From Thiotrichaceae bacterium (GTDB lineage Bacteria; Pseudomonadota; Gammaproteobacteria; SZUA-229): a stretch of 16,800 nucleotides of DNA. A program made the position numbers and the translations under genes. The notes below the pieces were generated by a model. It worked only from the letters and a program-made list of their open reading frames with translations. It ran no database searches and was not told the origin of the DNA. Location of the stretch: positions 1 to 16,800 of the forward strand of contig NVWZ01000004.1 in assembly GCA_002746365.1 (NCBI GenBank), read 5' to 3'. This document shows positions 2,868 to 16,800 of the stretch, in pieces. Within the stretch, counting starts at the first letter, position 1, and every line of letters begins with the position of its first letter.

Positions 2868-3164
2868 CTATTTAATAATGTGTTTTGATGGCTCCATTGA
2901 CTGATGCAACACATCAATAATCTCTATATGGGTAGGCCGGACGCGGTAGTAAATGGTATGGGAACCGACAAAATCACTATGGTATCCCACTTTCAGGTCT
3001 TCTCGTATTCTTCCACGAGATGGGCTTTCTGCTAACGCCTGCATCCGATTGCGAATATCCTGAAGGTAGGTTTTTGTTCTCTGAGGACCGAATTTTTTAT
3101 TCGAGTAGGCTTTTATGTTACTCAAACTCTTTTGCGCTGCAGGCGAAAGAAGGTATTTTGTCAT
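2868..3164 (-). CDS. parE: ParE/RelE-superfamily toxin
   Basis: A 98-aa ParE-family toxin of normal length. The visible pattern is the ParE fold: an N-terminal strand (YLLSPAAQ), a long helix pair (residues ~10-48), the SPSRGRIREDL turn, then SDFVGSHTIYYRVRP and IEIIDVLHQSMEPSKH. The SHTIYYRV strand and the final IIDVLHQSMEP are typical of ParE. ParE toxins of this type usually inhibit DNA gyrase. Its ATG overlaps the parD stop by one base (TAATG), the usual antitoxin-first coupling that keeps toxin below antitoxin. Its likely role is stabilising the carrying element by post-segregational killing. Function is inferred from the family; whether this copy targets gyrase is not shown. Confidence 0.92.
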   Translation of the reverse strand: MTKYLLSPAAQKSLSNIKAYSNKKFGPQRTKTYLQDIRNRMQALAESPSRGRIREDLKVGYHSDFVGSHTIYYRVRPTHIEIIDVLHQSMEPSKHIIK

Positions 3165-3403
3165 TATTTGATCAAATCTTGCATAAATGCATCGCCATCG
3201 ACGCCTTTGCCTTGATCGAGTTGCGCTTCACCAACAGACAGTGTCTTTCGTAGTAGATCTAATTTGGCTTCATGCTCTTCAAGAAGACGCAGACCCGCTC
3301 TTACCGCTTCACTCGTTGATTCAAATCGCCCTTGTTGAATTTTGTCTTCAACAAATTCGCCAAAATGTTCGCCTAATGTCACGCTCGTATTTCTTTGCAT
3401 CAT
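3164..3403 (-). CDS. parD: ParD-family antitoxin (ribbon-helix-helix)
   Basis: A 79-aa antitoxin. The N-terminal half is a ribbon-helix-helix DNA-binding domain: RNTSVTLGEHFGEFVEDKI, then GRFESTSEAVRAGLRLLEEHE. The C-terminal half is acidic and Gln/Lys-rich and would wrap the toxin. Dimers neutralise ParE and repress the operon. Two adjacent ATGs (3403-3401 and 3400-3398) follow a GAGG ribosome site; the second has the better spacing, so the product may be one residue shorter. parD is the first gene of the parDE pair. A sigma70-like promoter and operator-like repeats lie directly upstream. Confidence 0.92.
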   Translation of the reverse strand: MMQRNTSVTLGEHFGEFVEDKIQQGRFESTSEAVRAGLRLLEEHEAKLDLLRKTLSVGEAQLDQGKGVDGDAFMQDLIK

Positions 3404-3632: not shown

Positions 3633-3759
3633 ATATATTGCCCTTATTTTCATTGTTTTTACACTATTACATGTTATATTTAGTGTGACATTAAATAAAG
3701 CAGATATAAACCGCTCGCACGACGGCACTACACGCCCCGTGCCAGCCACCACCGCTTGA
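3613..3759 (+). CDS. Possible 48-aa single-span membrane peptide (uncertain)
   Basis: ATG at 3613 follows AAGG with a 7-base gap. The first half is strongly hydrophobic (YYHVLYIALIFIVFTLL, roughly residues 3-19, continuing to about residue 25), so one membrane helix is predicted. A polar tail with RSHDGTTRPVPATT follows. The stop (3757-3759) overlaps the ribosome site of the kfrA-like gene, so translation could be coupled. Against it: no clear promoter upstream of 3600, and AT-rich non-coding DNA often gives such hydrophobic frames. The last ~15 codons also lie in the GC-rich segment, a composition break inside the ORF. The longer frame from TTG at 3460 is not favoured. Confidence 0.25.
   Translation: MFYYHVLYIALIFIVFTLLHVIFSVTLNKADINRSHDGTTRPVPATTA
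3653..3686 (+). promoter_or_regulatory. Candidate kfrA promoter with overlapping dyad operator
   Basis: TTGTTT (3653-3658) and TATATT (3675-3680), 16 bases apart, make a plausible plus-strand sigma70 promoter. An inverted repeat ACACTA-N14-TAGTGT (3661-3666 and 3681-3686) overlaps the spacer, the -10 and the probable start point. KfrA-type proteins are known to repress their own promoters, so this is the best-placed self-repression site. Both hexamers are imperfect. Confidence 0.35.
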
Positions 3760-3770
3760 GGACAGACACC

Positions 3771-4790
3771 ATGGCCAGGCCATCCGTTATTGCCATCCAG
3801 GACATTGAAGACGCGGTCGACACGCTCAACGGCCTCGGCAAACCCATCAACCCTTACCAGGTGCGCACCTTGCTTGGTAAAGGTTCCGAAGCGAAAATCG
3901 CATACTTTTTAAAAGGACTGGACATCGATATCGACTACCAGGACGAAGACCCGGTCACAAAACGTCTGGTCAGCCTGATCCGTCCGGTGGTATTGGAACT
4001 AAACGACCAGTACGATGAATTAGTGGCAAAAGAGAAAAAAGGTCTGGAAGAACGTCTGGAGAAGGCAAAACAACAATCAGAAGCGCTTAAAAATGAAAGT
4101 AATAATGCGCAAAAAAACCATAAACAGGCGGCGCTTCGTATCAAGGAACTTGAAAAATCCCTCCTTGAAACCAATCAGGCCCTGACTGACAAAAGCACTA
4201 AATTATCAAAAACTGAGCAATCCAATGAAAATTTAAAACAAGCTCTGGTCGCCGCAGAGAATGCGTTGATTACGGTCAAACACCACCAGGATCAACTGCA
4301 GGCAGAACATACCACATTAGTGCACACCCTCAAAAATGAGCATGCAGAAACCCTCAAGGGGTATAAAAAAGCGCTTGAACAATCAAACACCAGTATCCAG
4401 CAAACCCGTGATCAATTAACCAATGCTGAGAATAAAAATAAAGCGCTTACTGAGACGAATGACAAACTGAAAGATCAGCTGAATCTAAGCCACCAGGAAA
4501 ATGCTGAGATATTAAACCAACTGACTGAGAGCAATAAACAACACATCGAACAGAAAAAACAAAACAAGCATCAAGCAGAAGAATTAGAGAAGCAGCAGAA
4601 TATCATCGCGGATGTTGAACAGGATCTCACCGCTGCACATCAAACCATTCTCCGCCTGAAAGAACATCAGGAAATAAATTTAAAGCTACAGACGGATCAC
4701 CAAAAACTCAGCACCAAGAATGAAAAACTCCGTACCGAAGTCGATGTTTTAAGGTCTGTTGTTGATAAGATATCCAAAAATAAAAAATGA
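3771..4790 (+). CDS. KfrA-like DNA-binding coiled-coil protein
   Basis: A 339-aa protein with two parts. Residues ~1-100 match the KfrA N-terminal DNA-binding domain: a helix-turn-helix region ending in GKGSEAKIAYFLKGL, which resembles the family's GRGS...hLK motif. From ~residue 90 to the end it is an almost unbroken Lys/Glu/Gln-rich coiled coil. KfrA of IncP plasmids is a self-repressing, alpha-helical plasmid maintenance factor; the family is also found on integrative elements. Start choice: ATG 3771 has GAGGA 8 bases upstream, whereas the longer frame would begin at TTG 3756 inside that ribosome site. It converges on the BREX operon and diverges from parD. Likely roles are element maintenance or regulation. 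The first ~250 bases are much richer in GC than the rest of the gene. Confidence 0.85.
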   Translation: MARPSVIAIQDIEDAVDTLNGLGKPINPYQVRTLLGKGSEAKIAYFLKGLDIDIDYQDEDPVTKRLVSLIRPVVLELNDQYDELVAKEKKGLEERLEKAKQQSEALKNESNNAQKNHKQAALRIKELEKSLLETNQALTDKSTKLSKTEQSNENLKQALVAAENALITVKHHQDQLQAEHTTLVHTLKNEHAETLKGYKKALEQSNTSIQQTRDQLTNAENKNKALTETNDKLKDQLNLSHQENAEILNQLTESNKQHIEQKKQNKHQAEELEKQQNIIADVEQDLTAAHQTILRLKEHQEINLKLQTDHQKLSTKNEKLRTEVDVLRSVVDKISKNKK

Positions 4791-4866: not shown

Positions 4867-6132
4867 TCAGATTAATGACGGCTGAACAGCCTTAGCAGCT
4901 TCAAATTCAGTGAATGGCCGAGCCCATGGTTCTAGCGGAAATGCTTCTGCTACAGCTTTTTGAAACTCATCATTCTTAAGCATCTCAAGCGTTACATCTT
5001 TGAATAGACAATTTATCTTAATATCAGAAATTAGTTTATCAATATCAGGTATTGTTTTATCCAGTTCATGTTCAAGATAATGACGAGCTTTATCAACAGT
5101 AATCGGTGTTGATGTCTGTCTAAGAAGGTCTGGGGGAGGATTCTTCTTAACTACTGGAACGAGTGCTTTCACAAGATTCTTTTTAGTTTTTATAACTTCT
5201 TTAGATAGTTGAGTCTTAATATCATTCTTAAACACATCAAGATTACCCATAATTTCATTTAATGCTTCGTCGAAATCTTTTCTGTTTGACCTCAGAATGA
5301 CTTTACCAACTGACCTTAGATTTTGAAGATAGCGTTCTCGCAAATTGTTTATTTCATCAATGAGTTTTTGTGATGCGGCTTGCTTATTACTATCTATTAA
5401 CTGAAATGACGAACGAAGACGTTCTTGAGTATCTTTATCCTTTGTCAAAAGTAATTTAAACTTTTTAGGTATATTAATTGTATGACGACTAACATGTGCA
5501 CCAACAATTTCTAATTCAACAAACTGAAGATAAGATGAATAAACCTTAACTTGCCTAGATAAATTAAATGGTTGCGGTGGATTTTCATCAATTTTATTTT
5601 TAATATCTTTAACACTATCTACACTGACTAGTGTCAACCCTACGTTTACAACAGGTTCTGATTCAGTAGGATTGTCTTCTCTAGGTGCTTCTTCTATTGT
5701 TTTCGGCGCTAAAGTTACATCTCTAGGAATAGAGATTGATTTAAACATCTCATCTACTTGTTGCCTATTCAGCACAAAGCCATTAGCGCTTTGTACTGGG
5801 AGACTTTGATCCTCAACCATCATTGCCGGCAAGCTAAACGCCCATCCCTTATAATCACATAATAAAACGCCTATTCTGCACCCTGCTTGCTGTCTAACAG
5901 ATAAATTCGCATCTTGAAGCATCTTGATTTCATCGATAGCCCCATACCCTAACCGAACAACATTTTCATCAACATCAAGAATTATGGTTACAGAATTCTT
6001 TCCAATCTGATTAGCTATATTTACAAGTGCCGATGCAATACTTGAATCCAGCCCTGGAGCCATAAATAGAACACGTTTCTTTGCCAAAAGGATTTTTTTG
6101 GCAATATCTGAAGGTCTCATTGTATAGAACAT
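4867..6132 (-). CDS. Unknown BREX-associated protein with a PLD-like N-terminus and a helical C-terminus
   Basis: A 421-aa protein, last gene of the BREX operon, 15 bp after brxL, with an AGGA ribosome site. I do not recognise a named family. Residues ~15-105 look like one phospholipase-D-fold repeat: KKRVLFMAPGLDSSIASALVNIA, then VTIILDVDE, then a C-terminal strand RIGVLLCDYKGWAFSLPA. At the place of the catalytic HxK(x)4D motif the residues are Arg86, Gly88 and Asp93, so it would be inactive as a phospholipase or nuclease and may bind a ligand. A proline/acid-rich linker (~143-190) follows, then a second region that is mostly long charged helices (~235-335). No signal peptide or membrane segment. 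A partner role for the unusual BrxL is inferred from position and from the shared PLD-like theme. Confidence 0.75.
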   Translation of the reverse strand: MFYTMRPSDIAKKILLAKKRVLFMAPGLDSSIASALVNIANQIGKNSVTIILDVDENVVRLGYGAIDEIKMLQDANLSVRQQAGCRIGVLLCDYKGWAFSLPAMMVEDQSLPVQSANGFVLNRQQVDEMFKSISIPRDVTLAPKTIEEAPREDNPTESEPVVNVGLTLVSVDSVKDIKNKIDENPPQPFNLSRQVKVYSSYLQFVELEIVGAHVSRHTINIPKKFKLLLTKDKDTQERLRSSFQLIDSNKQAASQKLIDEINNLRERYLQNLRSVGKVILRSNRKDFDEALNEIMGNLDVFKNDIKTQLSKEVIKTKKNLVKALVPVVKKNPPPDLLRQTSTPITVDKARHYLEHELDKTIPDIDKLISDIKINCLFKDVTLEMLKNDEFQKAVAEAFPLEPWARPFTEFEAAKAVQPSLI

Positions 6133-6147
6133 TTAATTGCTTCCTAC

Positions 6148-8217
6148 TCACACTTTAATATACGTAACTTCAAACGCCTTACAAGCACGCTGTTTCTGAA
6201 GTCTATTACTTAACTGAAAAGCATCACCCATATCGTACTGCTGGAAGATGTCCAACCCCCGATCAAGTGAGATTTTCCAACCTGCATCGGTCACGATATG
6301 GCGTGCATGTTGCGTACCGCTATTATCAAATGACCAGTCGAATTTTATACCCACGGAAAACATAGTATTTTGTATTTTTTCGAAAAACTCTATCTGTTGG
6401 AAGGATTTAAATTCATCTTCGACTGTAATTAGGTTTACAAATATTTCATCATCTTCTGTATTGTTTCTGACGACAGTTTCTAGGAGTTCCATTAGATTTC
6501 TTGCTTGATAGAACAGGCGAATATATGGGTCTGTAATTGTTATTTCTGTTGCCCCTTTCAGATATGGACCGAATAGCTTGTCATATGAGATACCTCGCTG
6601 GTTTTCTGCAAAGGTTAGGTGCTGCTCTTTTGGTGCTTCAGTTTTGGCTTCTTCATTAGCCGTTGCGTTAGGCGTTGAAGTTTCCGTGGACTCTTGATTA
6701 TTTCCAGTTCCATCCTCCTCACCATCAGAAACTGTTTTATTGAAATAGTTTGGGTACTCAATTTCTTCTAATGTAGCGACTGAGACTGATTTTCCGTCCA
6801 TATCACTGTAACTAAAGTTAACATCGGCATAGGTGTTATCAATTCTGAACAGTTGGTCCTTAACACGTATCCGCCCTTCTACTGAAAATTTTAATATATC
6901 CTCAATCTCTTCTTTTGATGCATCTCCTTGTGGGAAAAGAATCTTCATCAGCCCTGAAAATGTCTTATTAATCGCATCTCGGTCACGGGTTGAAATATCA
7001 GATGATAATGTGAAATATTCTTTATATTGATCCGAGAAGTCCTGAGTACGTAGATGTCTTAATATCTCGGCCAGGTAATCAACTACAAATCCATAACCTT
7101 CTGAGAACATCTCTCCTCTAATAATATCTACTTCCCAACCTGGTATATAAAAGTGCAAACGATCTAAGAAGGCCGAGTCGTAGAATTTTTCAGGTAATGC
7201 ATCAAATAAATTTGAGTGCTTCAACATGTAAGGCAAACTGTGTTCTGTATTACCAACAAATGCCATTGAGGCATCAGCACCTAATGTTTCTACACCGCGT
7301 GAGAAGGTCTTATTGGCCATATAGTTCTTCAATATATCTACCAGAGACTTATCAACTTTCTTTTTCTTGCCTGCAAACTCATCAAACGCTACGGTATCCC
7401 AGTAACCGACCAACCCGATCTTGCCAGAAGCATTATTTACAAAGAGTTTAGGTACGGTCACTTCTCCACCTGACAGCAAAATACCGTGTGGTGAAAATTC
7501 AGAATAGATGTGTGATTTACCCGTACCTTTAGGGCCCAGCTCGATCAAATTATAGTTACGTTCACAAAAAGGAATCAAACGTACTATTTGGATTAGTTTG
7601 CTTCGCCTTCCAAAGTGTTCTGGGTTAAAGCCAATGCTTTGTATTAAAACATCAATCCATTGATCCAGAGTAAACTGGCGACGGGCTTCAAGATAAGATT
7701 CATACTCAAAATGTGACATCTGGATTGGTTTAAGCGAACCCATTATCCAGGGCGAGCTATCCTTATCTTCAGAATGCTCATATTCAATATCTGCTATACA
7801 CCACACACCACCAACCAGTAGCTTCGGGTGTTTTTTAATCGTGCCTGAATCGATTAATATTTTCTTTATGCCCAAATTAGAAAACTCGGCCTCATAAACA
7901 TCTTTTTTATCGTTGAGTGCGACGCTCACTTTATCGATAACTTTATGGCGGCCTTTTTCTCGAATGGTCGAACGTATTAAGCCTGCTTCATTACGATGCA
8001 CATAATGCTTAGCTAAAATTTCTTTTACCGTTTGAATACCTGTCTCGATAGTATCTTCATCATTCGATGCACAATATTGCCCAAGCAAATACTCCAATAC
8101 ATAGGAAGGTACTATTGCGTTACCTTTAACAGTTTTAACAAGATCCTTTCTAACAACAAGACCTGGAAACACATCACAGATCTTTTGATCTAACTCATTC
8201 AATACGTTTTCTGTCAT
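6148..8217 (-). CDS. brxL: BrxL-like AAA+ protein with a MITD1-type C-terminal domain instead of the Lon protease domain
   Basis: A 689-aa BREX protein in the brxL position. Residues ~1-490 carry the BrxL AAA+ core: Walker A GPKGTGKS (228-235), Walker B AFDEFAG (277-283), a sensor-like GNTEH (322-326) and an arginine-finger-like LDRLHF (351-356). BrxL of characterised systems ends in a Lon-like Ser/Lys domain. Here no Lon-type catalytic Ser or Lys motif is visible. Residues ~499-536 are a Glu/Thr/Ser/Asn linker. From ~541 the sequence resembles the PLD-like C-terminal domain of MITD1: GISYDKLFGPYLKGATEI, DPYIRLFYQARNLMELLE, then GWKISLDRGLDIF. HARHIVTD (637-644) keeps an HxR(x)4D version of the HKD motif. 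It likely works as an ATP-driven ring on DNA, as known for BrxL; the tail's role is unknown. Confidence 0.9.
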   Translation of the reverse strand: MTENVLNELDQKICDVFPGLVVRKDLVKTVKGNAIVPSYVLEYLLGQYCASNDEDTIETGIQTVKEILAKHYVHRNEAGLIRSTIREKGRHKVIDKVSVALNDKKDVYEAEFSNLGIKKILIDSGTIKKHPKLLVGGVWCIADIEYEHSEDKDSSPWIMGSLKPIQMSHFEYESYLEARRQFTLDQWIDVLIQSIGFNPEHFGRRSKLIQIVRLIPFCERNYNLIELGPKGTGKSHIYSEFSPHGILLSGGEVTVPKLFVNNASGKIGLVGYWDTVAFDEFAGKKKKVDKSLVDILKNYMANKTFSRGVETLGADASMAFVGNTEHSLPYMLKHSNLFDALPEKFYDSAFLDRLHFYIPGWEVDIIRGEMFSEGYGFVVDYLAEILRHLRTQDFSDQYKEYFTLSSDISTRDRDAINKTFSGLMKILFPQGDASKEEIEDILKFSVEGRIRVKDQLFRIDNTYADVNFSYSDMDGKSVSVATLEEIEYPNYFNKTVSDGEEDGTGNNQESTETSTPNATANEEAKTEAPKEQHLTFAENQRGISYDKLFGPYLKGATEITITDPYIRLFYQARNLMELLETVVRNNTEDDEIFVNLITVEDEFKSFQQIEFFEKIQNTMFSVGIKFDWSFDNSGTQHARHIVTDAGWKISLDRGLDIFQQYDMGDAFQLSNRLQKQRACKAFEVTYIKV

Positions 8218-8229
8218 TTCTATGCCCTG

Positions 8230-10737
8230 TTAAAAATCAAAGTCGCTGGTGAAGGAGCGTCTCATTGTATAGGTAAGTGTTTTATATTTTTTATAATGCG
8301 TTGTACCCGCCAGCTTTTCTTCCAGTCGTAAGATAACTTCCTGGCCGTTAACTTCGTCTGCTTTTCTTGTTAATACAAAACGAACCTGTAATTCTCTTTC
8401 TCGTGGGTTATCCGAAATAAAATCAAAGACAAGATCATGGGAATCGGAAACAAGCTCACCATCTTGCGTGTAGATACCTGCTCTTAGTGTTCTTGGCTGC
8501 ACTTTATCTGTTGATGGTTCGGTTTGATAGAACACTAGTGCCAACTGTCCGGAGGTAATTACTTTTGTACCACCACGTAAAATATCAACCGATACAGCCG
8601 ATATATCACTTTTTCTCTTTTTATTAATATGGATAACCGGTATCACAACTTCCTGTAAGGATGCACCGCCATGAACAAACCGGCTACCAGCGCCTTTAAC
8701 ACGCAGTCTGTTAATTGATTTTGGAATTTGTACTTCCACATTACCCACTAATCCCAGATCGGATGACTGAAATGATCGTAACTCTGAAACCTCTTTTAAA
8801 CCCTTACCTAATACAAACCGTCTATTGCGATAGAGAACCTTCTCACCTTCTACTTCTGCTCCTGAAAAATCACTCTCATCTAGAACACTGTTCTGATAGA
8901 TAAAACCATGGTCTGCTGTTATTAAGAAATTGCTCGCATTTGCCGCAGCTAGTTTCTTAATAATTTTAATTAAATCCTGAAGTGCATCTTCAGCAGCATC
9001 AAACACACGCTCTTCAGAATCGCGTGAATCACCTGTTTTATCTATTTGATTATGATAAATATAAAGCACATCATTTTCGCGTAGTAAAGCACGACTTTCA
9101 TCTCTATTTAAAGACATTAAGTCTTCAGAGCGAATGGCTGTACCGCGCTGCTCAATCGCCTGATTTAGTATTTTTGATCGATTAGCTGTTCCCTGTGAGC
9201 TTCGACCATCTACTTGCACCGCTCCCGAATCATTGTCCATCAGCGATAACACTTTATTTGGCAGAAGCGCGGCCATACCTAGCTGTGTATAACTGGGCAG
9301 CATAGACAATGCCGGCTCAAGGTTGGCGTCGAATCGGTCTTCCTGACGTATCAAACTCAACAGCTCATCACCTACTTCATAACGCAGAGCATCCGATATG
9401 ATTACGTACACTTTATTGTCTTTCTTCAGGTAACGCTGAACACAACTTTCGAAAAAATTCTTTTGCAATAAAACAGGTGATGCATCCCATTTATCAGTAG
9501 CATCAACCTGAATTTGCCAACGATCATTTAACTTCAGTAGATAATTATTCGAATACAGGTTTTCAATTTGCTCAATCAAGGAACCCAGCAGCGTTGTTGA
9601 GCGAGCATCACAACGAGCATGATATGTAAACTTTCGGTACAGTTGATCTAACCGAAACCAAGATTGAGAATATCGCTGTATTCCGTCAGACATCGAATCC
9701 ATTTCTAATGTCACTTCATCAAGCATATGGAAAAACTGTGAAGCAAAATCAATCGCTTCGTATAGATGCTGATAACTTTTGTACCAATGGCTCTGACGCC
9801 TCTGCCGTACCCAGAGTGCAACATCGCCTGTTGAGACGGTTCTAGCTACAACATTTTGCACCAGCTCATAGATTATCTTTTCATCAATTAAACTAAAGTA
9901 ATCCAGATCTATCAGGTTGCGGAAGTCACGGTTATGTAAATCCTGCTCAATACCTAACGAGTCAGCACACTTTTTAGACAAAGATTCAAATGATGCTTCA
10001 TATTGACGACTATCCTTCCATCTTCTAAGAAAAACCAGCGCATCAGATGATAAACGTACATCACCATCAGTACCCATGGCATAACATGACTTGAAAAGCT
10101 CAATGACAAAATCATGGATACCAGGCTCATCAGACTTGTAACCATAACCGCGCTCCATTCGCTCCCAGAGAAATCCATCAAGGTTACAGCGTGCTATTAA
10201 TTTAATTTTTTCATCATTATCAGTAGCAAGATCCAACAACAGATGTTCAAGTGACGCATCAATACGTGGGTCACTTGTACAGCCAGCACAAACCGCTAAC
10301 ATTTTTATACGGATGAAACTGTCAATGTCATCCTCCTTAAGCAGGCTTTTTAAATCATCTTTTCGCTTAACCGCTTTAAAGAACTCTTCATGCTCCTGCA
10401 CTAAATCAGAAAATTCCACTCCAAGTTCCAACTCACCTAACCACAGTGCTATCTGATCAGTGCGAAATTCTGCTTGCCCTAGTTGAACATCGAGAAGCCA
10501 GTTATCCATGCTATCGGGCTCTGGGCCTTCACGATAAAGGAGAAACTTCTGCTCAGGCTCTTCTCGTAATACTTGATACTTAACACCAAACTCATTATTC
10601 GTGAGTTCGATTTTCTCAATTCCAGACAAATCCAGACTCTCATAGTCTCCGCGTAACTCACTCTTTACGTCGCACCAGAAAACAATCCGATGTTTATCAA
10701 AGAGTTTAGTTAGTGCTTGTGTAATACGGTTACTCAT
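8230..10737 (-). CDS. pglZ: BREX type 1 PglZ, alkaline-phosphatase-fold protein
   Basis: An 835-aa PglZ of normal type 1 length, essential for BREX in studied systems. It has a long helical N-terminal part (~1-420) and then the alkaline-phosphatase-like domain: YVIISDALRYE (444-454) with metal ligand Asp449, the YTQLGMAALLP segment (483-493) with probable catalytic Thr484, a YHNQIDKTGD loop (561-570), and ITADHGFIY (606-614) with metal ligands Asp609 and His610. All key residues are present, so it should bind divalent metal. A beta-rich C-terminal domain follows (~690-835). The ribosome site AGGA precedes ATG; it starts 8 bp after pglX and ends 12 bp before brxL. Its substrate in BREX is not firmly established; PglZ is thought to work with PglX. 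Confidence 0.95.
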   Translation of the reverse strand: MSNRITQALTKLFDKHRIVFWCDVKSELRGDYESLDLSGIEKIELTNNEFGVKYQVLREEPEQKFLLYREGPEPDSMDNWLLDVQLGQAEFRTDQIALWLGELELGVEFSDLVQEHEEFFKAVKRKDDLKSLLKEDDIDSFIRIKMLAVCAGCTSDPRIDASLEHLLLDLATDNDEKIKLIARCNLDGFLWERMERGYGYKSDEPGIHDFVIELFKSCYAMGTDGDVRLSSDALVFLRRWKDSRQYEASFESLSKKCADSLGIEQDLHNRDFRNLIDLDYFSLIDEKIIYELVQNVVARTVSTGDVALWVRQRRQSHWYKSYQHLYEAIDFASQFFHMLDEVTLEMDSMSDGIQRYSQSWFRLDQLYRKFTYHARCDARSTTLLGSLIEQIENLYSNNYLLKLNDRWQIQVDATDKWDASPVLLQKNFFESCVQRYLKKDNKVYVIISDALRYEVGDELLSLIRQEDRFDANLEPALSMLPSYTQLGMAALLPNKVLSLMDNDSGAVQVDGRSSQGTANRSKILNQAIEQRGTAIRSEDLMSLNRDESRALLRENDVLYIYHNQIDKTGDSRDSEERVFDAAEDALQDLIKIIKKLAAANASNFLITADHGFIYQNSVLDESDFSGAEVEGEKVLYRNRRFVLGKGLKEVSELRSFQSSDLGLVGNVEVQIPKSINRLRVKGAGSRFVHGGASLQEVVIPVIHINKKRKSDISAVSVDILRGGTKVITSGQLALVFYQTEPSTDKVQPRTLRAGIYTQDGELVSDSHDLVFDFISDNPRERELQVRFVLTRKADEVNGQEVILRLEEKLAGTTHYKKYKTLTYTMRRSFTSDFDF

Positions 10738-10745
10738 TAATTATC

Positions 10746-13700
10746 CTACTTACCACTCAATCCAGTTATTTTTTTTAATGCTGTGCCGAATTTGTTGTAA
10801 TTCACTTTCACGCCATCATCGAGATCGATTTCTAACTGCTCTGTGGCGAGTGGGTATAACACATCACGTTCGTATTCTTCCATTTCCACAATCATCTTGT
10901 TCAGTTTTTCTATTGCTTTTAATGCTTTTGTTTTTTCACTCTGAGAAGCACTGGCGCTGATATTTATGGCTTCAAGATGTTGCTTACGGGAGCTTAGTTT
11001 GGCGTTGAATTCTCGTAGGTAATCATTAAGTACGACGCTGACAGTATCCGGGCGGTAACGATGCATGTAAATTAGTGCGTTGAAACTGCCCTTGGGACTA
11101 CTGAACATCCAGTAAATGGGTCGTTTTTTGTAGCGTTTTACGTGATCATTGTAAAAATCTTTAAGGAAATATTTACGGACATCCTTACCGATACCATGCT
11201 CGATGAACTTCAGATTTTCTTCGTAGTGTTCTTCTCCAAAGGTAACTCGCAGGAATTTAAAAAAACGATCGGTAATGTCATCGGTAAACCAGTCACCGTC
11301 GAGCATCGGAATCACGTTATCATCATCTGCAGGATAAGATGGATTATGAATTTGCTTAAAATATTCTTCTAATGTTTCACCTTGATTGGCAACAATTAAA
11401 CCTTTTTTGTCTAACGAATAGCGACCAAACATACAGCCTACTGCATATGAGAGAAAACCATTAATAACTTCACTCGGTGTAAATACAAGCTTATTTTCAA
11501 TAATTTCAGCCACATCATCTAACAACGTAATATGCTTAAGATCAACGTCTGGTGATATATCTTCCAACTGGTATATATTAAATAAGTATGAGTTTATTTT
11601 TTCTTCATTACTATGCAAGGTCCAAAATCGATTATCCCAATAAGAGCAAAAATCATGAAATGCCTGCCTAAAATCACCATTTTTATTATATTTTAAAAGT
11701 TCATTTTGTTTAAATCCCCAGGATGATTCTTTACAATTCCACTCTTCCTTCGCAATTTTTATATTTTCCTGAGATAAAGAATCAATTTTAAACTTCAAAT
11801 CATTTTCTTTAGGTATGATTAATGGTAGCCGTTGTATATCACCAACTTGGAAGTTTAGAGTTGGATTTAGTGATATCAAACATTCTGAAGAAATTTTTGA
11901 CCCCATAAATGCCAATATATAGTCAATGTTTTCTTTATCTGGAAATGCTGATGAGCCACCAACATCAAAAAGAAAACCAGCCTCATTATATCTTGGTCCA
12001 AAACTTAACCCAATTAATGACCAAGTAATTGATTCTTTAAAATAATATTCTTTATTTTGTGGCCTAGATCTTAGCTTCCCTTTTGAATCAGTAAAGTTTT
12101 GAATTTCATAACCGTCGTTCTCCCAATTAACAATGAATATTTGATTGCCATACCACTTTCTAAAGCCACCACCTTTATTATATGGAAACCACTTTAATCC
12201 ACTCGAACTAGCTAACTGCCTAGTTTCATAATTAAAACCAATTCGATTAAATGAGACCTCTGTCCAAATTCTAACAAACTTATCATTTTTGCCTGTTGCC
12301 ATTCCTTGCCTAGGTTCTGCAATTTCTCGTAATTTTTGCGCAGAATGAAAAACGTGTCTAAGTGCTTTAGGGGTTTCAAAAGATATAGGTGTACCTTCGA
12401 TGTACGCAAACTCATCTGAGTTAATATTATAAATATTTAATGCATTCTTCTCTTTAAAAAATATTTCTTTTTTATCTGCTGTTTTTGAAGCATTATTTAA
12501 TGATATGAAATCACCATACTGTCCTTTTAAGTCCTTAATGATAGTAAATGCTGCTGCAAGTGCAAATTTTGAATTAAGTTCAGGGAAGCTATTAAAGCCA
12601 ATCTGAATTAAATTTAATATTGAATGATAATCAAGTATTTTTGCACGTAACTCTTCATAAGAATCAATAAAAAGCCAAGCCTGCATCGTAATCATTGAGC
12701 AATAACCAAATGGTAGTGTTAGCTCTAAGCCTTTTTCAATAAAGCATGCGAACAAATCACCTTTGGACCTAGGGAACCTAAACGCCATATACATTTGTAG
12801 TTGATCATTTAAATCTTTCTTTGATTTATAAGGCGGATTTGCGATTACCACATGATATTTCGGTATAAGATAGTCGGCCTGTCGTAGAGTTTTCAACACT
12901 TTTTCATGTGTCTCGTTCAAAAACAACTGCTCGGACACATCCTTTGCACTCAATAGATGCAACATACTCGCAACATCAGTTACTTCTGGAGTAATCAACG
13001 AACCGAAGTTGTTCGTCTCTTCAAATTGGCTAAGAGTAGTTAACAGTGGTGTAGTAAACAGATCTCGTCCAATAAACTCCATATACTCCTTAAGTTCATC
13101 CTCTTCAAACTGAATATTTTCCAATACACAAATATTGGGGTGTACCTGCTTACGGAAAAAACGGCGCTGTTTAGCTCTGGCTTTCATCGTCAGTGCAAAT
13201 GCAGCCAGTTCCCCAGCACGCTCATCAATCTCAACACCATACAGGTTATTGGTCAGGATTTTTTCTGGTATGTCGGCAGGTTCATAACCCTCCTCTTCGT
13301 AAATTGCATAGAGCAGGTCAAAGGCATAGGTAAGCATGTGACCCGAACCACATGCAGGATCACATATTTTAATTTCTTCGGGACTGCTGATTTGCAGGAA
13401 GTCGGCTTCTGGTCGCTCAGGCTTAATGTAATAATCCATCTGCTTAAGCAACCCTGAATCAGGGCGATTAAGCATCCACAAGCGACCTAATGAATTCTCT
13501 ACCAGGTAGCGAACAATCCAGTGCGGGGTAAAAAGCTGAGTGGCGGCAGGAATATTCTCTGGTGTAATCTTTTTGTTCTTTTTTAGTCCATCGAATACCT
13601 CGTCCTTCTTCTCTGAGATGTAGAACTGATAAAGCCAGCCGATAACTTCTACATCTTCACAAATGTCTGGCGTCATCGCCTCGCGCGTATAGGCGAGCAC

Positions 13701-14231
13701 AGAGTTTCCAGAGAGCAGATCATCTGGCATCAGTAGTTCAGTGTAATCGGCAATGCGCTCAAACATATATGGCATAGCTTTGTAGTAGTCGTTACAGGCG
13801 GCAACAACCAACAGACGATAAGCCTCAGATTGTGGATCTTTGCTAGGCGAAGTACCATCAAGCAAGGTAAAGATTTGTTGTCTAGTAGTGTCAGGCACCA
13901 TACCTTCGTCGATATGCCCCATCTTGGCTTCAGCCAATATCTCGGGTTGGAACTGTCCCTCTGCAGGCGACACCACACCGATACGGGTATAGCGGTTCAC
14001 ATCCATGAAGCGTAGAGCGCAGAAGCGGTTGAACCAGATGTAAGCAACCTGTTCTATCACATGTTTCTTGCTATGAATCTTGATTTGCTCTTCAAGCTTT
14101 TTAACAGCCTCTGCATTTTCACGCCGGGCTGCACTATCATCGTTGAGCACGAGCTTGAGTTTATTTGAAACCTGTTCAATCAGACTACGGCGGGCATATT
14201 GCGCGAATTTTTTTAGTTTTGTTGTTTCCAT
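10746..14231 (-). CDS. pglX: BREX type 1 PglX, N6-adenine DNA methyltransferase
   Basis: A 1161-aa BREX adenine methyltransferase of normal length. It methylates the host at a specific asymmetric site and provides self/non-self discrimination. Order of features: an N-terminal helical segment (METTKLKKFAQYARR), FTPHWIVRYLVEN (234-246), SAM-binding motif I DPACGSGHML (291-300), GVEIDERAGELAA (332-344), catalytic motif IV NPPY (465-468), then the target-recognition region (~470-930) and a helical C-terminus. All methyltransferase motifs are intact. The recognition region is strikingly AT-rich compared with both flanks, as expected if it has been exchanged. Its ATG directly abuts the TAA of the preceding gene with no spacer, so translation is probably coupled. 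The recognised DNA motif cannot be read from the sequence. Confidence 0.97.
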   Translation of the reverse strand: METTKLKKFAQYARRSLIEQVSNKLKLVLNDDSAARRENAEAVKKLEEQIKIHSKKHVIEQVAYIWFNRFCALRFMDVNRYTRIGVVSPAEGQFQPEILAEAKMGHIDEGMVPDTTRQQIFTLLDGTSPSKDPQSEAYRLLVVAACNDYYKAMPYMFERIADYTELLMPDDLLSGNSVLAYTREAMTPDICEDVEVIGWLYQFYISEKKDEVFDGLKKNKKITPENIPAATQLFTPHWIVRYLVENSLGRLWMLNRPDSGLLKQMDYYIKPERPEADFLQISSPEEIKICDPACGSGHMLTYAFDLLYAIYEEEGYEPADIPEKILTNNLYGVEIDERAGELAAFALTMKARAKQRRFFRKQVHPNICVLENIQFEEDELKEYMEFIGRDLFTTPLLTTLSQFEETNNFGSLITPEVTDVASMLHLLSAKDVSEQLFLNETHEKVLKTLRQADYLIPKYHVVIANPPYKSKKDLNDQLQMYMAFRFPRSKGDLFACFIEKGLELTLPFGYCSMITMQAWLFIDSYEELRAKILDYHSILNLIQIGFNSFPELNSKFALAAAFTIIKDLKGQYGDFISLNNASKTADKKEIFFKEKNALNIYNINSDEFAYIEGTPISFETPKALRHVFHSAQKLREIAEPRQGMATGKNDKFVRIWTEVSFNRIGFNYETRQLASSSGLKWFPYNKGGGFRKWYGNQIFIVNWENDGYEIQNFTDSKGKLRSRPQNKEYYFKESITWSLIGLSFGPRYNEAGFLFDVGGSSAFPDKENIDYILAFMGSKISSECLISLNPTLNFQVGDIQRLPLIIPKENDLKFKIDSLSQENIKIAKEEWNCKESSWGFKQNELLKYNKNGDFRQAFHDFCSYWDNRFWTLHSNEEKINSYLFNIYQLEDISPDVDLKHITLLDDVAEIIENKLVFTPSEVINGFLSYAVGCMFGRYSLDKKGLIVANQGETLEEYFKQIHNPSYPADDDNVIPMLDGDWFTDDITDRFFKFLRVTFGEEHYEENLKFIEHGIGKDVRKYFLKDFYNDHVKRYKKRPIYWMFSSPKGSFNALIYMHRYRPDTVSVVLNDYLREFNAKLSSRKQHLEAINISASASQSEKTKALKAIEKLNKMIVEMEEYERDVLYPLATEQLEIDLDDGVKVNYNKFGTALKKITGLSGK

Positions 14232-14729
14232 TTATATACCAGCTTCACTTAACCGTTTGACGGTCCATTTAGGATAATTTCTATTCCAGGCTGCGATGGT
14301 TAGTACATGGCAACTAGCAGCAATAGGTCTTGACCAACATGACGGACCAATAAGTGGCAAATTTTTATGTAAGTTATCTTGGATACTATTGAGCAATGCT
14401 TCTTCAAGGGTAATTAGCGAAAGAAAGTGTATGGGTTTTTCAGGCTTATTAACTGCCCATCTATAAACGAAGGAGTCTCTAAACTTCTTTACAATGTCTT
14501 TACAAAGGTTTCCATTTGTAGCGATTGCCTCAAATTGTTCTACAGCTTGAACATGTGCATGTGGATGAGATGGGTCTTTTACCTCAATAAAAAGATATGC
14601 ATCTGCTAACTCTACGACGAAGTCAACGGCTTTCATACAGTGCGATAAGGCATGGCCACTATCATCAAATTTGATAGCATCGAGAGCATCGGTAAAATCA
14701 AATTCTAAATCTGCTTCAATAAGGATCAC
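14232..14729 (-). CDS. Small protein with a PD-(D/E)XK-like motif, partner of the adjacent ATPase
   Basis: A 165-aa protein starting with GTG at 14729, which overlaps the ATPase stop (GTGA, 4 bp), and ending exactly at the base before the pglX ATG. I do not recognise a named family. Residues 33-52 read KAVDFVVE...AYLFIEVKD: Asp36, then Glu49-Val-Lys51, in two adjacent beta strands. This is the spacing and hydrophobic pattern of the PD-(D/E)XK nuclease core. A helix follows (HVQAVEQFEAIA). The C-terminal part has several Trp and Cys residues (PSCWSRP, ASCHVL, AAWNRNYPKW). It may be a nuclease or a nuclease-fold DNA-binding subunit gated by the ATPase. Activity is inference from one motif; similar strand pairs can occur by chance. 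Confidence 0.75.
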   Translation of the reverse strand: MILIEADLEFDFTDALDAIKFDDSGHALSHCMKAVDFVVELADAYLFIEVKDPSHPHAHVQAVEQFEAIATNGNLCKDIVKKFRDSFVYRWAVNKPEKPIHFLSLITLEEALLNSIQDNLHKNLPLIGPSCWSRPIAASCHVLTIAAWNRNYPKWTVKRLSEAGI

Positions 14730-15844
14730 TTTCCCAGACCTCCCATAGTCTTGGAAATTTCATGATCAGTCAGATCACTATAACTATCGGCAATCGAATT
14801 AGGCGTAATTTCTCGATAGTTATCTGTAGTCTCAAGCTTGATTTTTTCAGATTTTTGATCACGATACAGTGTATGAAACCGTACATAATCATCCTTGCCT
14901 TTATCCGCCAACAGATCAAACCATTTGAGTAGCACATAATCATGAGTTGCGATAATAATTTGCTGCCCCTTACGTGAAAGCTCTAATATGATATCCACAA
15001 GCATCTGCATCAGCTTGGGATTCATATTGGATTCAGGTTCATCCCATAGTAGTGGCCCGTTAACGCCTGTGCCGATTGCCTGGTTCTCCAATAGCCGCTG
15101 AAGTACACCAATTTTTCGATACCCCTCAGCAGTCATGGTGGCGGACAAGCTGTGCTTGCTGGATGGAGCAAAGTAAGACTTGCTTGCATGCTTATCCTTG
15201 TAGTCCTTATATACACCTTCTTTGAAGCAAACCGTTGTGTCGTCAAATAAAAATTGCCCACCCAATTGATTGGTGATTGCCTCTCGGAACCAAACTGTTT
15301 TTTCCTCAACTTCGTCTCTCTGCTGTTCAAGCAGCTTGTCTGTAAGATCGAAGTAGGTCATATCAAACAATCGGTTCAGCGTGGCTGGGTCAGAATTCTC
15401 ATTTGAAATCCCATCAAGAAAGGAAAGAACCTCTTTTGCTGGGAGATAGACCGCACCTTGGGAAAATGGCGTTTTATGATTACCCTTAACCTGTACTTTA
15501 CTGGATCTGGATGTAAATTCAGCACCTAGTTGACCACTTGATGTGAATTCCGCAGTAATTTCTGCTTTCCCACTACCACCACGGTTATACAGTTCACCAA
15601 GTTTGTTTTCAGTAGGCTTATAAACATGTATCAATCTATCGGTGAGCACCTGCTCTACTTTCGATTTTGTTATCTTTTCATCTCCAGAGAATGCCGTGCC
15701 TGTGGTGCTTAGAACATAAGCAGCTTTTAACAACTGGGTTTTACCGCAACTATTTTCTCCAATAATAACGTTAACCTTTGGTGAGAAATCTATTGATAAC
15801 TTTTCAAAGGCAGCAAAGTTGTTTAGTGTAATTTTATCGAGCAT
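14726..15844 (-). CDS. RecF/SMC-like AAA ATPase embedded in the BREX operon
   Basis: A 372-aa ABC-type ATPase of the AAA15/AAA21 kind. It opens with the typical MLDKITLNNFAAFEKLSIDF strand pattern, then Walker A GENSCGKT (29-36), a signature-like segment near SATMTAEGYRKIG (234-246), Walker B LLWDEPES (265-272) with catalytic Glu269 or nearby, and the H-loop His301 in IIIATHD. All ATPase elements are present. It is too short to carry a fused TOPRIM nuclease, so it is not a full OLD or GajA protein. It overlaps the nuclease-like gene by 4 bp and starts 8 bp after brxC. Such ATPases commonly sense phage or DNA ends and switch on a linked effector. With the next gene it may form a two-protein accessory defence unit inside BREX; that function is inferred. 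Confidence 0.88.
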   Translation of the reverse strand: MLDKITLNNFAAFEKLSIDFSPKVNVIIGENSCGKTQLLKAAYVLSTTGTAFSGDEKITKSKVEQVLTDRLIHVYKPTENKLGELYNRGGSGKAEITAEFTSSGQLGAEFTSRSSKVQVKGNHKTPFSQGAVYLPAKEVLSFLDGISNENSDPATLNRLFDMTYFDLTDKLLEQQRDEVEEKTVWFREAITNQLGGQFLFDDTTVCFKEGVYKDYKDKHASKSYFAPSSKHSLSATMTAEGYRKIGVLQRLLENQAIGTGVNGPLLWDEPESNMNPKLMQMLVDIILELSRKGQQIIIATHDYVLLKWFDLLADKGKDDYVRFHTLYRDQKSEKIKLETTDNYREITPNSIADSYSDLTDHEISKTMGGLGK

Positions 15845-15852
15845 CAGTAATC

Positions 15853-16800
15853 TTATGTCTGTATACGTTTGCCTTTACCTATTTCAGCAAGTAAAGCTTC
15901 ACGTAATTGTTTCAAATAGAGATCAACATCTGCTTCATTTGCAAGCCATGCCTTATCAAAATCAACGATGATTTTTCTGGTGGATATATATTCAATTTCT
16001 GTCTCAGCGACACCCCCAGTAGAGCCACCTGACACCTCACTAGTTTCCGTATTATCTTCATTTGTAGCCTTTTCCACAGGCGTTGCCATTCCAACCATTT
16101 TTGCTAACAGAGTTTGATAGCCCTGCTCTTCAAAAAAGCGAATCGAGTCGTTAATTACAGCGATAAGTGTTTGTTGATTTACACGATCGATCAAATCACT
16201 AAACGGTGCATCAAGCTCAGTTTTTTGAGCTTCTTGAAGTACACTATACTCATCCATACTATGCAATCGTGACTGCATTCCTTCTAGTATTTTTAATGTT
16301 TCTGTGCGTTTTTCCTGTATCTTTTTATCAACTTTTGTTTTCAGCTCATCAAGTTGTGTTTTCAGATTTTGTATCTTATTGCCTTTGTAACAAGAAGGAT
16401 CGACCAATACGGTTTTAATCTGCCCGATGGTGTCGTCTTTCACATAGATAAAGTTGGCCTCTTGTGCCTGCAAAAATTCTTTGCCATGTTTGTATATATC
16501 TTTCTGCGGACCACTCATGAACTTTTTAATCGGGTCTATGACACTTTCTTTTACATCCAGAAGATTATCTTCATTATTTAACAGTTCTGTTAGATACCAG
16601 GTATAGGGTTTTCCGTTTACAGATTCCAGCTGCTCGACAACGGGTACGAGTGAATTGAGAAATGGATACTGCATCGATTCTGCAACAAGAAGATTAAGTT
16701 CACCTATCAGCTTTTGGAATGCTGTACCTGTATCCTTTCCAAGAACTTTTGCTTCGCTTGATTGTGGTGGAGCATCGAAGAAATCTTCATAAAATTCTTT
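15853..16800 (-). CDS. brxC: BREX P-loop protein BrxC, C-terminal 315 residues (5' end outside the window)
   Basis: The frame stays open from the stop (TAA, 15855-15853) to base 16800. A frame beginning at the Met at 16674 would be artificial: 42 more codons in phase (KEFYEDFFDAPPQ onward) precede it, and BrxC is normally about 1,200 aa. The visible part has a long Lys/Glu-rich coiled coil (QNLKTQLDELKTKVDKKIQ and onward), a low-complexity Asn/Thr/Ser/Gly stretch, and the characteristic BrxC end: EYISTRKIIVDFDKAWLANEADVDLYLKQL then REALLAEIGKGKRIQ. The Walker motifs lie beyond the window. BrxC is a large ATPase needed for BREX defence. It is followed 8 bp later by the embedded ATPase rather than directly by pglX. 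Confidence 0.93.
   Translation of the reverse strand, partial: KEFYEDFFDAPPQSSEAKVLGKDTGTAFQKLIGELNLLVAESMQYPFLNSLVPVVEQLESVNGKPYTWYLTELLNNEDNLLDVKESVIDPIKKFMSGPQKDIYKHGKEFLQAQEANFIYVKDDTIGQIKTVLVDPSCYKGNKIQNLKTQLDELKTKVDKKIQEKRTETLKILEGMQSRLHSMDEYSVLQEAQKTELDAPFSDLIDRVNQQTLIAVINDSIRFFEEQGYQTLLAKMVGMATPVEKATNEDNTETSEVSGGSTGGVAETEIEYISTRKIIVDFDKAWLANEADVDLYLKQLREALLAEIGKGKRIQT

Follow-up and report, generated by a model that had tools for sequence, protein, structure and literature searches.

The gene at positions 6148–8217 (−) of the window, i.e. the whole 16,800-nucleotide stretch of contig NVWZ01000004.1 from a Thiotrichaceae bacterium (GCA_002746365.1), encodes the restriction ATPase BrxL of a Type-1 bacteriophage exclusion (BREX) system. 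It is a variant in which a single phospholipase D (PLD) half-domain of the MIT_C family is found instead of the Lon-like tail. The His and Arg of an H-x-R-x4-D motif in this tail are near-invariant, and we see about an even chance that the protein is an AAA+ ring that threads DNA, with paired PLD tails forming a site that binds phosphate and probably cuts DNA. The tail-swap class itself is already published (PMC12839542); added here are a survey of the motif, the kinship of a second tail type (type B) with human MITD1, and the occurrence of MIT_C outside BrxL.

Domain architecture of BrxL

The 689-residue reading frame runs from ATG to stop and was assigned by comparison with Pfam, PADLOC, NCBIfam and PDB sequences. 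Residues 16–146 (7780–8172, −) match BrxL_N (PF20442, E = 2.4e-50) and residues 158–469 (6811–7746, −) the AAA+ ATPase domain BrxL_ATPase (PF13337, E = 1.8e-128), with Walker A GPKGTGKS at residues 228–235 and Walker B VAFDEF at 276–281 of the translation. Both matches exceed the Pfam cut-offs, and TIGR02688, an NCBIfam model ending at the ATPase, passes with 650.6 bits against a cut-off of 329.3. An earlier note on this DNA had proposed a BrxL-like AAA+ core, which is borne out by the two Pfam domains and by the alignment of the solved BrxL 8emc; the note's Walker A positions are exact, whereas Walker B, placed at 277–283, is slightly shifted. Moreover, its range for the feature, 6148–6700, covers only the tail and the last part of the linker, not the whole reading frame.

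A linker of partly low complexity (residues 470–541, 6595–6810, −; delimited by reading the sequence) leads to the tail at residues 542–688 (6154–6594, −). Its match to MIT_C (PF16565, E = 5.4e-42), described in Pfam as 'phospholipase D-like domain at C-terminus of MIT', scores 143.5 bits (cut-off 25) and is far beyond chance. The MITD1 entries 2ymb and 4a5z align over residues 525–660, and structure prediction gives the tail a PLD-like fold that qualifies as a PLD half-domain of MITD1 type. The protein is not MITD1 proper: its N-terminus is that of BrxL, and Pfam shows no MIT domain. Conversely, TIGR02653, the 675-position model of Lon-tailed BrxL, matches residues 8–475 only, with 624.0 bits just below its cut-off of 628.25, and the alignment of 8emc (residues 7–475) stops at the same point; the Lon/RadA-like C-terminal domain of the TIGR02653 class is not found here. 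No Lon proteolytic domain family is listed for this BrxL by Pfam or NCBIfam at E ≤ 0.01, and 'Lon' occurs merely in the names of some matched BrxL models. The PADLOC BrxL model PDLC02508 (698 positions) covers residues 7–688, tail included. The MITD1-type tail and the missing Lon domain reported in the earlier note are thus confirmed and the domain was correctly recognised; the interpretation given there is partly supported. As to its wording that the Lon domain was replaced, the tail does differ, but the implied direction of change is not settled by the trees discussed below.

Conservation and distribution of the tail

Two conserved elements stand out from the sequence and from comparison across tails: the nearly invariant DPYIR (residues 563–567; 6517–6531, −) and the H-x-R-x4-D motif HARHIVTD (residues 637–644; 6286–6309, −), which the earlier note had overlooked. 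Among 343 distinct tails from many phyla, the His (H637) is present in 341 and the Arg (R639) in 339, and none reads H-x-K; the window tail accordingly lacks the H-x-K-x4-D signature of canonical HKD phosphodiesterases and nucleases. Human MITD1 also has H-x-R, with N replacing the motif Asp. In a Tenacibaculum BrxL (locus L147, 6429–8435, +), with brxC, pglX and pglZ annotated alongside, C replaces the motif Arg.

A scan of GTDB species genomes returned 334 stretches encoding a relative of the tail, of which the best 80 were kept as loci. Tail and BrxL core share one reading frame in 79 of these 80. Among the 68 kept loci that leave 2 kb of room, 66 have PglZ no more than 3 kb upstream, and 54 of the 56 that leave 6.5 kb have PglX. 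By record titles, the best 80 of 334 include Pseudomonadota and desulfobacterial, spirochaete, planctomycete, lentisphaerote, synergistete, cyanobacterial and bacteroidete taxa as well as candidate phyla. In profile searches PF16565 scored above cut-off in 7 of 398 phylum genomes, the window's own among the seven, and BrxL_N was found at 19 places, spread over 16 of the 369 class genomes. Four weak PF16565 matches below cut-off in the phylum survey (L008–L011) were dropped, two of which read as ABC transporter ATPases.

The earlier note had called for a survey of Lon versus MIT_C tails. Among the 19 gammaproteobacterial BrxL loci, which were cut near the gene end so that tails were partly seen and typed by tail comparison, six carry type A (the window's kind), one the divergent MIT_C tail of type B, eleven a Lon-type tail and one no matched tail, i.e. 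MIT_C-type tails amount to 7 of 19. Three gammaproteobacterial genomes (G420, G585, G651) have two BrxL_N places each, G420 pairing a type A with a type B tail. In a Planktothrix locus (L151) the gene between pglZ and brxL, the latter of Lon type, encodes a separate PLD-like protein (PLDc_2; 822–2402, +), which looks as though the PLD were supplied in trans.

The window protein shows the PLD-type tail, the motif and the Type-1 locus of the BrxL-HKD variant described in PMC12839542 (2026). In its relevant passages that paper reports that an 'HKD-endoDNase' carrying an HRD motif takes the place of the Lon domain in BrxL, proposes a DNase, states that the variant follows a 2025 Menshen paper, and counts the tail in 1030 of 2913 Type-1 taxa with BrxL. 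BrxL core, Lon swap, HRD motif and BREX type are shared and no essential difference is apparent from these passages. They rule out novelty of the BrxL–PLD architecture and overturn the earlier view that the role of the tail in BREX is undescribed. The main text of PMC12839542 is without the terms MIT, MITD1 and ESCRT (endosomal sorting complexes required for transport), and the kinship with MITD1 is not drawn there. A passage of PMC12715929, citing a 2015 BREX paper, names PF16565, COG4930 and PF13337 together as BREX parts; it gives family names only, without structure, motif or function. The CoCoNuT paper (PMC11090510) mentions PLD nucleases and BREX in passages that do not include a BrxL PLD tail. 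Neither a link of BrxL to MITD1 by name nor an experiment on the PLD/MIT_C tail of BrxL was found in the literature searched, which was largely without subscription papers. The possibility, raised in the earlier note, that the same tail is already characterised in most BrxL proteins does not hold in this literature; roughly one in three BrxL proteins of Type-1 systems carries it.

Putative mechanism and alternative readings

Acinetobacter BrxL (8emc) has the N-terminal and AAA+ domains in common with the window protein, while its tail has a Lon/RadA-like fold and that of the window a PLD-like one. According to passages of PMC10164562, it forms a dimer of hexamers on DNA and of heptamers without DNA, and its C-terminal domains join both rings at the equator of the chamber. 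By analogy with this relative, the N-terminal and AAA+ parts of the window BrxL would assemble as a ring on DNA, and the tails would be located where two rings meet tail to tail. PLD half-domains generally pair, building one active site. The tails of two subunits may pair in the same manner, joining two H-x-R motifs around the DNA backbone, and the paired sites would then cut or nick DNA without the BREX mark. A PLD tail at the equator could serve both ring joining and site formation around DNA. We infer cutting as the preferred output from the DNA-holding ring, the strictness of H and R, and the restriction-enzyme relatives. The latter, SauUSI (whose PDB title names an ATP-dependent restriction enzyme), the NgoAVII R protein and BfiI, share the PLD fold with the window tail at about 6–10% identity and carry the canonical H-x-K motif. 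The K to R change is called conservative and likely active in PMC12839542, where the DNase claim, as far as its relevant passages go, rests on sequence and models; H637 and R639 make it directly testable.

Several points weigh against catalysis. The K898R variant of PLD1 is called lipase-inactive in PMC2739277, a passage of which also states, in one sentence, comparable lipase activity for the constructs of one experiment. H-x-R is moreover kept in MITD1, whose role is described, in passages of PMC9776629 and PMC6015221, as membrane binding. For these reasons the H-x-R motif does not by itself demonstrate catalysis, and the keeping of H and R is to be expected whether the tail is a catalyst or a pocket that binds phosphate. 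MITD1 is not known to be an enzyme.

The strongest alternative, to which we give roughly one third of our confidence, is that the tail has a PLD fold but no catalytic role. It would pair to join the two BrxL rings, as the inactive Lon domain does, with the H-x-R pocket only holding a DNA phosphate and PglZ doing the cutting. The inactive K898R, the retention of H-x-R in MITD1 and the absence of H-x-K from all 343 tails speak for it, as does the presence of FAM83, a non-catalytic PLD fold, among the fold matches of the predicted tail. The Lon-type tail is likewise non-catalytic and mediates ring–ring contact, as described in parts of PMC12839542 and PMC10164562. Mere dimerisation, however, would not require His and Arg to be kept so strictly across many phyla. 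The same two papers describe Lon-tailed BrxL as lacking the Lon catalytic dyad, so the tail swap cost no protease function. The suggestion in the earlier note of an output other than peptidase is probably right as a guess, albeit there was no protease function to lose.

We regard it as improbable that the tail, like the PLD domain of MITD1, instead binds acidic lipid head groups and thereby brings BrxL to the inner membrane, the site of phage DNA entry. This gains some weight from a Thiodictyon protein that combines Dynamin_N with MIT_C, but another MIT_C protein carries IF2_N, which is linked to nucleic acids, and 79 of the 80 kept loci join the tail in frame to a DNA-binding ATPase core. Fainter still is the prospect that the target of the tail is RNA or a nucleotide, e.g. 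as a suicide effector set off when BREX is blocked; nothing specific speaks against it beyond the tail sitting on a ring that holds DNA in a relative. An annotation artefact through gene fusion or misassembly, of which there was no sign, is refuted by the recurrence of the architecture in 79 of the 80 kept loci and in at least 119 other proteins, all near relatives.

Type B tails and kinship with MITD1

The type B tail on the second BrxL of one gammaproteobacterial genome matches human MITD1 with E = 7e-38 over 147 residues, compared with E = 8e-14 for the window (type A) tail. Type B tails are rarer than type A and reach at most 50% identity to human MITD1 (L125 8227–10419, +; L130–L142; L144 10390–12489). 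Fourteen loci of the viral collection have a type B relative, with the full tail in 13 and the last 28 residues only in one. Of the seven with room, five have PglZ no more than 3 kb upstream, and 12 of the 13 tails are in frame with a matched core. Type B tails also occur on three plasmids, one from Thioflavicoccus and two from Hymenobacter; a type B tail had no match in the phages collection. Outside BrxL, a C-terminal MIT_C follows Dynamin_N in a plasmid protein of Candidatus Thiodictyon (L148 5640–8483, +) and IF2_N in one of Paenarthrobacter (L150 7470–8519, +).

In the tail tree, MITD1 and type B group at 95/73 with L148 and L150 included and at 100/100 once these two long branches are omitted, the bootstrap in the latter tree not being fully settled. 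Human MITD1 is the sole eukaryotic sequence in it, and direction and age of any transfer are not readable from it. The core tree is a quick tree of 61 of 138 rows plus the window, with four similar Lon-type rows and most type A rows thinned; before the topology tests four more rows were removed (two identical copies, one near copy and one far tailless row). In the best tree types A and B each form one clade, with Shimodaira–Hasegawa-like approximate likelihood ratio test values of 100 each and Lon-type rows between them, yet neither a joint clade of A and B (p = 0.365) nor a single Lon-type clade (p = 0.184) is rejected. Two separate gains of an MIT_C tail are therefore not upheld, and while the MIT_C tail stands in place of a Lon-like one, the trees do not fix the direction of change.

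It is conceivable, albeit rather doubtful, that the PLD domain of eukaryotic MITD1 and the BrxL tail are one module crossing bacteria and eukaryotes, type B being the closest bacterial kin found. A shared H-x-R phosphate pocket would then read DNA in BrxL and lipid head groups in MITD1, a MIT-domain protein binding ESCRT-III as well as membranes, and perhaps in the bacterial dynamin, rather than perform classic HKD catalysis. If borne out with more eukaryotic sequences, the close relationship of a tail used in phage defence to an ESCRT-linked human domain would represent another eukaryotic cell-biology module shared with bacterial defence.

Genomic context of brxL

All genes of the locus lie on the minus strand, in the transcription order BrxA, BrxB, BrxC, HEC-02A, HEC-02B, PglX, PglZ, BrxL and a 421-residue open reading frame (ORF). 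The 3′ part of brxC is at 15853–16800 (−) and its frame continues beyond the window edge as a 1182-residue open frame of the contig, with brxB and brxA upstream; all three were called by Pfam on the adjoining contig sequence. The methyltransferase gene pglX (10746–14231, −; 1161 residues, BREX-1 adenine methyltransferase) is supported by PADLOC PglX, NF033452 and Eco57I/N6_Mtase, and pglZ (8230–10737, −; 835 residues, BREX-1 PglZ type A) by PF08665, PADLOC PglZ and TIGR02687. As BrxA, BrxB, BrxC, PglX and PglZ are all encoded with BrxL, and BrxC is whole across the window edge, the locus is a complete Type-1 BREX operon.

Between brxC and pglX sits a pair called by PADLOC, a HEC-02A-like ATPase of AAA_15 type (14726–15844, −; 372 residues; PDLC04213, E = 7.5e-103; AAA_15) and a HEC-02B-like ORF (14232–14729, −; 165 residues; PDLC04229, E = 6e-58; no Pfam family). 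Both have relatives in 12 of the 80 kept MIT_C-type BrxL loci.

The 421-residue ORF directly after brxL (4867–6132, −) is rare: no family was assigned by Pfam, PADLOC or PHROGs, the NCBIfam match is below cut-off, 16 other proteins were found as relatives, and its profile occurs in 2 of the 369 class genomes, again counting the window's own. On an Acinetobacter towneri plasmid (L014, 13950–15206) a BREX operon with Lon-type BrxL contains a relative between pglX and pglZ, the gene starts overlapping. A 63-residue fragment following brxL in L081 is the sole relative beside the 80 MIT_C-type loci. Possibly the ORF is an unnamed BREX accessory. A role as dedicated partner of the PLD tail is ruled out by the full-length relative in the Lon-type operon and its near-absence beside MIT_C-type loci. 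An N-terminal PLD half-domain is likewise unsupported, as profile comparison with the tail gave a probability of 0.7% and PDB sequences gave none. Another relative, on a Caballeronia plasmid (L015), lies near a McrC-annotated gene.

A phage-type integrase near the contig end (469–1545, −) and a KfrA_N protein (3756–4790, +), both from Pfam, accompany the BREX genes, and no MIT_C match was obtained in 17 other genomes of the genus, many of them incomplete. Together, these observations are consistent with the BREX region being a mobile island. A ParD/ParE toxin–antitoxin pair (2868–3403, −; Pfam) adjoins the operon.
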